A stretch of 64,000 bases of DNA from Acidimicrobiales bacterium (GTDB lineage Bacteria > Actinomycetota > Acidimicrobiia > Acidimicrobiales > SHLQ01). The translations under genes were made by a program, and so were the position numbers. Positions 3,086 to 33,214 of this stretch are shown here, piece after piece (the stretch's first letter is position 1; every line of letters begins with the position of its first letter). The notes below the pieces were generated by a model. The model worked only from the letters and a program-made list of their open reading frames with translations, searched no databases and had not been told where the DNA came from. The stretch is from positions 1 through 64,000 of the forward strand of contig JAHDCX010000006.1 in the NCBI GenBank assembly GCA_020629635.1, read 5' to 3'.

Positions 3086-3154
3086 GACTTACACTCAAAC
3101 ACATCACGGCGCATCAGTCGCCGGTGACTGGATGTCTTTCCCCCGAGACTTCTA

Positions 3155-3205
3155 GTTCTTGAAGAACCTCGCCGATCCCCCCTCGGCGAGGTTCTTCCAA
3201 TTTTT
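3155..3205 (+). terminator. Intrinsic terminator, possible attenuator, ahead of the PBP gene
   Basis: A 15-bp perfect stem (GAAGAACCTCGCCGA at 3161-3175 with 3183-3197) closes a C-rich 7-nt loop and is followed by CAATTTTT. It ends 43 bases before the PBP start, and no plus-strand gene lies between 3086 and 3160. The left arm overlaps a second palindrome, GTTCTTGAAGAAC (3155-3167), that could form a competing hairpin. This suggests leader attenuation or the end of a short RNA; neither is proven. Confidence 0.6.
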
Positions 3206-7605: not shown

Positions 7606-7998
<393 letters not shown>

Positions 7999-31285: not shown

Positions 31286-31332
31286 AACCGAGCACGGTAG
31301 CGGCCTCGGGAGTGGGCGACCGTCACCGATCC

Positions 31333-31379
31333 GTGGGACGGCGTCCCACTGGCGGCCAATTGGTGGGACGGCGTCCCAC
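31333..31379. promoter_or_regulatory. Two identical 17-bp palindromes, 30 bp apart
   Basis: GTGGGACGGCGTCCCAC occurs at 31333-31349 and 31363-31379, each a perfect inverted repeat around a central G, and both are followed by TGG. A half-site (TCCCAC) follows at 31384-31389. Centre spacing of 30 bp is about three helical turns, so two protein dimers could bind on one face. The regulator is unknown. Confidence 0.6.
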
Positions 31380-31456
31380 TGGGTCCCACGGTCGGGTCGG
31401 GGCCAGCTCACCGGGCCCGTCAGAGCGAAATCGACCGAATTTCAACGAACAACTGG

Positions 31457-31470
31457 CGAACAAAAGTTCG
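31457..31470. promoter_or_regulatory. LexA-box-like palindrome
   Basis: CGAAC AAAA GTTCG matches the Gram-positive/actinobacterial LexA consensus arms (CGAAC-N4-GTTCG) exactly, and the next base (A) extends the actinobacterial form on one side. It sits between the paired palindromes and the MraZ-type repeats. A single match by eye; binding is unproven. Confidence 0.4.
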
Positions 31471-31524
31471 ATTCTATCCAACGTGACTTGCGGTTCCACC
31501 GCGTTCTGCCGAAAGAATGGGAAG

Positions 31525-31570
31525 AAAGTGCAAGAAAGTGTTGCCAAGTGTGGGGAAGTGTGGCAGTGTG
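31525..31570 (+). promoter_or_regulatory. Candidate MraZ operator: five GTG repeats at 10-bp period
   Basis: AAAGTG, AAAGTG, CAAGTG, GAAGTG and a weaker GTGTG unit end at 31530, 31540, 31550, 31560 and 31570, an exact 10-bp period. MraZ is known to bind its own leader at short direct repeats with about one helical turn spacing (AAAGTG-type in low-GC bacteria). The array ends about 58 bases before the mraZ start. Confidence 0.65.
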
Positions 31571-31628
31571 TCACACATGGAGTACGGAGCCCCCGCGTCA
31601 AGCGGAATCGAACGAGAAAGGGGAGAAG

Positions 31629-32054
31629 GTGCCGTTCGTCGGACGATTCGAGCACTCCCTGGACTCGAAGCATCGAGTGGTGCTCCCACGGAAGTTCCGG
31701 TCACAGCTGGGCGAAGCGGTCTACCTCGCCCCGCAGGGCAATTCCCTGGCCGTGTACTCCGAGGAGGAGTTCGAACGCCGGTCCGAGCGATTGGTCGCCC
31801 TGATCGAATCCAAGGAAGTTCCGCCAGCCGCCCGCTTGGCGCTCGCCTCCAGTTCGGAATTGATCGAGCTGGACTCGGCGGGGCGCATCACCATTCCGCG
31901 CCGGCACCGCGAGGAAGTCGGCCTGGAGGGCGACGTGGTCGTTGCGGGAGCGCTGAAGCACGTCGAGATCTGGGATCGGACAGCATTCGAGGAGCACGAA
32001 GCCTCGATGAAGGAACTGCTCTCCGAGCAGTTCAAGGACGGGGGCACGATCTGA
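31629..32054 (+). CDS. mraZ: Transcriptional regulator MraZ
   Basis: The 141-residue protein has two SpoVT/AbrB-like halves, each with the DxxxR signature: DSKHRVVLPRKFR near residue 11 and DSAGRITIPRRHRE near residue 83. MraZ forms octameric rings, binds repeats ahead of its own gene and controls the dcw cluster. GTG 31629 is chosen because GGGGAGAAG lies directly before it and the protein then begins VPFVGRFEHSLDSKHR as in the family. It is the first gene of the division and wall cluster; rsmH follows after a 167-base structured gap. Confidence 0.95.
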   Translation: MPFVGRFEHSLDSKHRVVLPRKFRSQLGEAVYLAPQGNSLAVYSEEEFERRSERLVALIESKEVPPAARLALASSSELIELDSAGRITIPRRHREEVGLEGDVVVAGALKHVEIWDRTAFEEHEASMKELLSEQFKDGGTI

Positions 32055-32111
32055 CGGGCACGGCCGCCCACGGGAGGGTCGCCTGAGCGAACTCCCACGA
32101 GCCCGCCTCGT

Positions 32112-32225
32112 TCATTGACAGTCTCCCGGTTGGCAGATGGAAGGCCCCTACTCCGCCCGCTTGCCATCAGCTCGATCGGGGGAGAAATCCCGACGTGCGC
32201 CCGCTGACCGGGGGACTGTCAATGA
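32112..32225 (+). ncRNA. Structured leader of rsmH (mraW RNA-like)
   Basis: TCATTGACAGTCTCCCGGT (32112-32130) and ACCGGGGGACTGTCAATGA (32207-32225) are inverted with 18 of 19 positions complementary. Inside are TGGCA/TGCCA (32131-32135 and 32162-32166) and a hairpin TCGGG/CCCGA (32176-32180 and 32189-32193) with loop GGAGAAAT. The 3' arm contains the rsmH ribosome binding site GGGGGA and its ATG, so the fold would hide translation initiation. A conserved mraW RNA motif is known upstream of mraW (rsmH) operons in some actinobacteria; this may be a member. Confidence 0.6.
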
Positions 32226-33214
32226 CCGAGGCAAATCGTGCGCTTGAGCGACGTGATCGACAATTGGTGGCTGCCGTGACCTCCCCTGTCTTCGACCATG
32301 AGCCGGTACTGCTCGACGAGACCCTCGAACAACTGTCGCAGGCGCCCGCAGGCGTCGTCGTCGACGGAACGCTCGGTGGTGGCGGGCACGCATCAGCGGT
32401 CCTGGCGAACGCCGGTCACCTCCGGGTGCTCGGGATCGATCAGGATCCGATCGCGATCGAGGCGGCCACGCGAAAGCTCGAGCCCCATGGCGAACGAGCG
32501 ACGATCGTTCGCGCCCGATTCGACGAGATTGCACGCGTGCTCGACGAGCACGACATTGTCGAGATCTCGGGCTTCCTGCTCGATCTCGGCGTCTCGTCGC
32601 CGCAACTGGATACCGGTTCACGCGGGTTCAGCTTCCGGTCAGATGCGCCGCTCGACATGCGCATGGACCCCGACTCGCCGCGCCGGGCGCATGATGTCGT
32701 CAACGGATATCCGCTCGGGGACCTCCGCGACGTCCTGTCCTCGTGGGCGGACGAACGCAATGCTGCCCGGATCGCAAGGGCCATCGTGGAGGCGCGGCCG
32801 ATCGAGACGACCCGCGGTCTCGCCGAAGTGGTCGAGTCTGCGACGCCTGCCCGCGATCGTCGCAAGGCAACGGTGCACCCGGCGACCCGGACCTTTCAGG
32901 CCATCCGGATCGAGGTGAATCAGGAACTGGAGATTCTCGGACCGACACTCGAGACGCTCGTCGACTCACTCGCCATCGGTGGCGTCGGTGTGGTGCTGAC
33001 CTATCACTCCGGCGAAGATCGCATCGCCAAGCACGCCTTCCGGACCGCAATCGAGGCGGGATCGCTGCCCGGGCTACCTCCGGTCTCGGATTTCGAGTGG
33101 GCGGTTCGAGGGGCGACCACGCCGAGCTCGGCGGAAATCGACCGAAATCCCCGTGCGCGATCGGCGAAGTTGCGGGCGATTCGCCGTCATGGCCGAGGAA
33201 CACGCAATGGGTGA
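32222..33214 (+). CDS. rsmH: 16S rRNA (cytosine(1402)-N(4))-methyltransferase
   Basis: The 330-residue SAM-dependent enzyme (formerly MraW) methylates N4 of C1402 in 16S rRNA. Markers are FDHEPVLLDETLEQL, VVDGTLGGGGHASAVL (SAM loop), LGIDQDPIAIE, DLGVSSPQLDTGSRGFSF, PLDMRMD, NAARIARAIVEAR, TFQAIRIEVNQELEIL and YHSGEDRIAKHAF. ATG 32222 has GGGGGA 7 bases upstream; an in-frame GTG at 32195 is the alternative. The start lies in the 3' arm of a long inverted repeat, which may control its translation. The stop overlaps the ftsL start by 8 bases. Confidence 0.96.
   Translation: MTEANRALERRDRQLVAAVTSPVFDHEPVLLDETLEQLSQAPAGVVVDGTLGGGGHASAVLANAGHLRVLGIDQDPIAIEAATRKLEPHGERATIVRARFDEIARVLDEHDIVEISGFLLDLGVSSPQLDTGSRGFSFRSDAPLDMRMDPDSPRRAHDVVNGYPLGDLRDVLSSWADERNAARIARAIVEARPIETTRGLAEVVESATPARDRRKATVHPATRTFQAIRIEVNQELEILGPTLETLVDSLAIGGVGVVLTYHSGEDRIAKHAFRTAIEAGSLPGLPPVSDFEWAVRGATTPSSAEIDRNPRARSAKLRAIRRHGRGTRNG

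Follow-up and report, generated by a model that had tools for sequence, protein, structure and literature searches.

A long RNA hairpin between mraZ and rsmH of Acidimicrobiia, separate from the mraW RNA, is a probable leader controlling rsmH translation initiation

The rRNA methyltransferase ErmC represses its own mRNA, and in autogenous ribosomal-protein leaders an RNA resembling an rRNA site lies beside the gene of the binding protein. The methyltransferase RsmH (MraW) acts on C1402 of 16S rRNA and needs the assembled 30S subunit, not naked 16S rRNA (PMC5053481); its human homologue METTL15 contacts the RNA backbone without sequence preference (PMC10828496). According to a preprint (PMC13317604), RsmH-modified ribosomes of B. 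subtilis are better at translating mRNAs with early stem-loops. The closest described structure is the mraW RNA (RF01746), whose reported taxonomic range is Actinomycetales (PMC2864571). It is a single unbranched hairpin with the loop ACUUCCCC. Transcript data from corynebacteria place the 5′ end of rsmH inside or downstream of this motif (PMC3890552, PMC5784534), which is a warning for any leader model of the locus described here.

The window (the whole 64,000-nt stretch of Acidimicrobiales DNA that was analyzed) contains rsmH, encoding the 16S rRNA C1402 N4-methyltransferase (32222..33214, + strand; PF01795, E=1.5e-93), preceded by mraZ (31629..32054, + strand; PF02381, E=2e-24). Downstream of rsmH comes the division and wall cluster. 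The element studied here is placed between mraZ and rsmH. An earlier note on this DNA had described 19-nt inverted arms at 32112–32130 and 32207–32225; these are present, and each extends to 26 nt (32105–32130 and 32207–32232), with 24/26 positions complementary (92%) and the arms 76 nt apart. In a scan of the window for repeats with 26-nt arms and a spacing of 30–150 nt this was the top pair, the next best reaching 20/26, and five copies of the window generated by a first-order Markov model gave no more than 21/26. The predicted helix reaches inward to about 32134/32203. The 3′ arm was also found to enclose, as the same note had claimed, both a Shine-Dalgarno-like GGGGGA (32210–32215) and, 6 nt downstream of it, an ATG (32222–32224), the first ATG of rsmH and in frame with the gene. 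A GTG at 32276, preceded by GGTGG, could be an alternative true start of rsmH, judging from the sequence.

A scan of 31300–32420 found no sigma-70-like promoter or terminator. A run of short direct repeats (GAAAGTG, AAAGTG, AAGTGTGGGG, AAGTGTGGC) resembling MraZ operator boxes occupies 31516–31578, upstream of the mraZ GTG at 31629. Elsewhere, the window contains a class A RNase P RNA (7606–7995, − strand) and a 6C RNA candidate at threshold (3125–3201, + strand; 47.5 against 47 bits).

RNA folding of the element gave −79.2 kcal/mol (z = −7.3 relative to dinucleotide shuffles). The predicted architecture is a three-way junction in which a 28–30 bp stem, P1, closes two hairpins, P2 (32136–32168) and P3 (32170–32198), both + strand, in agreement with the two further helices previously proposed for the loop. 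The 5′ (32105..32134, + strand) and 3′ (32203..32232, + strand) arms of P1 are each defined by the inverted repeat, the fold and covariation. P2 (GAUGG AAG ... CUU g CCAUC), drawn from the MFE fold with 98.1% of cells paired, shows a double change in one pair in an alignment of 30 members. Its apical loop GCCCCUACUCCGCCCG, delimited by alignment (32144..32159, + strand), includes the core CUCCGCCC at 32151–32158. P3 has a purine-rich loop, GGAGAAAU, and double changes in 4/10 pairs.

The arms do covary in relatives. In the 30-member alignment, double compensatory changes were found in 22/28 pairs of P1 and in 27/45 pairs overall, a number reached in 0/500 shuffles; sliding the pairing partners by one to three columns reduced the paired fraction from 93% to 44% or less. 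In a DNA search of the order, the identity of the element in the best matches (79–95%) exceeded that of the coding flanks (70–75%). P1 contains 75 G-U pairs against 7 A-C mismatches on the sense strand, indicating that selection acts on the RNA strand. Such an excess is expected of a sense-strand RNA and unexpected of a DNA palindrome, and these comparative sequence data identify the inverted repeat as an evolutionarily maintained RNA stem under RNA-level selection. A protein-coding reading of ATGGAAGGCCCCTACTCC (MEGPYSARLPS) was rejected, since the element lengths are spread over all frames (37/35/28); common 1-nt indels also contradict it.

The distribution of the element was examined with R1, a covariance model built from the family. 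R1 matched 297/395 sampled genomes of the class, which was judged to be Acidimicrobiia from the named records, most named matches being Acidimicrobiia/Acidimicrobiales. It matched 0/269 sampled genomes of the other classes of the phylum; among the sampled genomes, the element is thus known only from Acidimicrobiia. Genomes lacking an R1 match include degenerate forms and apparent losses. Weak or degenerate versions are retained at the f33 locus and at the inspected f23 loci with matches, and no comparable repeat before rsmH was found at the inspected f7-family loci. The gene context is constant: rsmH lies directly downstream on the same strand in 100/100 members inspected, and mraZ precedes the element in 98/98 members with enough upstream sequence and a recognisable match. 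The two members outside the latter count are L036, whose sequence begins 4 nt before the element, and L205, in which an mraZ match is absent within 1.5 kb.

Two shapes of the element were distinguished. The long form (approximately 120–140 nt), with P3, occurs in the order of the studied strain and some others; the short form (approximately 95–104 nt), found in several other orders, is unbranched, lacks P3 and keeps CUCCGCCC. A separate set of short forms also showed a covarying P1 (double changes in 13/23 pairs). The CUCCGCCC core is exact in 90/100 members, is mostly unpaired in MFE folds, and persists in small-genome members with elements of only about 44% GC. In most members of both shapes it starts approximately 47–49 nt from the 5′ end, and the median length of P1 is 28 pairs.

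Some short forms (e.g. L148:1501–1604 and L166:1501–1600) carry a conserved GCCAGCG just before the 3′ arm of P1, a repeat of the GCCAGCC of the 5′ arm; from its sequence, GCCAGCG might pair with the 3′ arm instead, which makes a strand-exchange switch possible. A long-loop variant was also noted (L035, L036, L040, L041, L043, L221 and L225; e.g. GUACUUCUGCCCCACAACUCCGCCCG), which joins an mraW-like GUACUUC (or GUGCUUC) and the Acidimicrobiia core ACUCCGCCCG in a single loop.

The suggestion that the hairpin belongs to the mraW motif did not hold. RF01746 (gathering threshold, 50 bits) gave no match on 31950–32400 even at E≤10, none at E≤5 in six additional members, and none in 198 genomes of the class (0/198), whereas in the same kind of search it matched mycobacterial and related actinobacterial rsmH leaders. 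Reciprocally, R1 gave no match in five mycobacterial loci at E≤1, so that neither model finds the other RNA at the sensitivities used. The two RNAs nevertheless share their position in the mraZ–rsmH interval of actinobacteria, a long G+C-rich hairpin just before rsmH, and an apical loop rich in pyrimidines that contains AC-U-Y-C and runs of C. They differ in that the mraW RNA is unbranched, whereas the element either branches as a three-way junction or forms a hairpin of approximately 100 nt without branches, with the loop CUCCGCCC. On this sequence comparison, the element is a family separate from RF01746 and alike in position and general shape; a common origin may be considered. The family is in no RNA catalogue searched, and is absent from Rfam 15.

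Long hairpins with CUUCCCC-type apical loops were also seen before rsmH at seven loci of other actinobacteria (L064, L071, L073, L078, L081, L094 and L098). L071, the sole scanned locus of the seven, was below the RF01746 gathering score. As judged from these sequences, RF01746 may be too narrow.

The placement of start codons in P1 bears on its function. An ATG or GTG lies inside the 3′ arm in 76/100 members, preceded in 70 of these 76 by a Shine-Dalgarno-like purine-rich run. This codon opens rsmH itself in 52/100 members and another short frame in 24/100; in several members (L013, L008, L015, L196 and L179) the short frame ends on the rsmH start. The other 24/100 members have no ATG or GTG in the arm, and their rsmH begins tens of nucleotides downstream, which shows that start masking is not the sole constraint on the family. 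For most members, masking of initiation is the best-supported function.

We therefore favor, with somewhat better than even confidence, the explanation that the element acts in cis as a leader RNA and exerts RNA-level control of rsmH translation initiation; the hairpin probably sets the amount of RsmH enzyme made. A closed P1 would keep ribosomes off the buried start, and translation of rsmH would hinge on the state of the stem, which might be closed, slow to fold, opened or cleaved. That state would be set by a trans-acting factor docking on the apical loop. Among the downstream genes, the predicted anatomy bears on initiation of rsmH only; the on/off switch of the whole wall operon proposed in the earlier note would go beyond it. 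The absence of CCGCCC from the RF01746 loops counts against this explanation.

Given the likeness of the loop to the 16S rRNA target of RsmH around C1402, this enzyme itself would be the most economical candidate for such a factor. The best match of ACUCCGCCCG in the 16S rRNA of the same organism is ACACCGCCCG at 1396–1405 (E. coli numbering), with 9/10 identities; the next best site reaches 7/10. With a profile of the core, the C1402 site was the top-scoring 16S site (10.6 versus 1.9), and with a wider 25-nt profile it ranked second. An equally good match over C1402 was given by 4.3% of shuffled 25-nt loop consensuses, so the resemblance is a lead that is weak statistically. Feedback by RsmH through the loop is, on these sequence grounds, an attractive hypothesis. 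A related route, suggested by the B. subtilis result (PMC13317604), would dispense with direct RsmH binding: initiation on structured starts of this kind would be more efficient with RsmH-methylated ribosomes. By either route, rsmH expression would be self-adjusting.

The described systems offer partial parallels. As with ErmC, an rRNA methyltransferase would govern its own translation by binding a leader; the target of ErmC, however, is 23S rRNA, and binding by RsmH is here only hypothetical. The element departs from ribosomal-protein leaders in that its gene encodes a modifying enzyme and that only a 10-nt stretch resembles rRNA. In B. subtilis cmpA and isp, an early stem-loop that surrounds the start codon makes translation dependent on C1402 methylation, but these are genes other than rsmH, and the accessible part of the preprint reports no conserved loop of the kind found in the element (PMC13317604).

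Several other explanations were weighed against leader control of rsmH initiation. The specific version of the feedback idea, in which RsmH would repress its own synthesis by binding the ACUCCGCCCG loop as it does 16S positions 1396–1405 and locking the stem, gains from a 9/10 match falling exactly at C1402, the top core-profile site, and from the presence of rsmH downstream in all cases. The rate of equal matches among shuffled consensuses, the 30S requirement of RsmH, the backbone-only contacts of METTL15 and the variability of the loop position equivalent to G1405 all weigh against it, and we regard this form of repression as rather unlikely. We are similarly doubtful that P1 is primarily an RNase III site, although the stem length and near-constant geometry (P1 with a median of 28 pairs, the core at about position 48) would suit an enzyme that cuts the 28–30 bp duplex, parts mraZ from rsmH and frees the rsmH ribosome site, with the loop being secondary. 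In C. glutamicum, cell division requires cleavage by RNase III within the mraZ coding region (Maeda 2016, quoted in PMC8247434), but that cut is not in the mraZ–rsmH intergenic region, and RNase III leaves the near-invariant CUCCGCCC loop unexplained.

Pairing of the loop with a purine-rich RNA, either a small RNA or a Shine-Dalgarno region, would account for its being C-rich and unpaired, as are the C-rich actinomycete counterparts (CUUCCCC). Pairing to 16S or 23S rRNA was rejected, as no good complement was found (7/10 in the 16S rRNA of the same organism, and only 8/10 in an rRNA stretch of a relative). A kissing interaction between CUCC of the P2 loop and GGAG of P3 was likewise rejected: it would span just 4 nt, short-form members have no P3, and the nucleotides involved show no covariation. 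An antisense role for the loop thus seems quite improbable. The explanation we disfavor most strongly, and hold to be very improbable, is a DNA-level palindrome serving as a cruciform or protein operator. The repeat is indeed nearly palindromic and matches itself on the other strand, but the sense-strand bias toward G-U pairs and the R1 scores (141.7 bits for the sense strand versus 42.2 bits for the other) argue for RNA.

With the element, one of the best-conserved bacterial division gene clusters gains an RNA family that spans a whole class, and structured rsmH leaders in actinobacteria thereby come in two distinct forms. Its near-invariant loop is a precise starting point for finding what senses or controls RsmH. 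Should the loop be read by RsmH, the element would offer a clear example of a modification enzyme gauging itself via a copy of its rRNA target. There is a small chance, in our estimation, that the leader presents, throughout the class, a copy of the 16S decoding site (ACUCCGCCCG for ACACCGCCCG) atop a start-hiding stem, through which RsmH would control itself; if true, this would tie modification of the decoding center to the gene that comes right after mraZ in the division and wall cluster.
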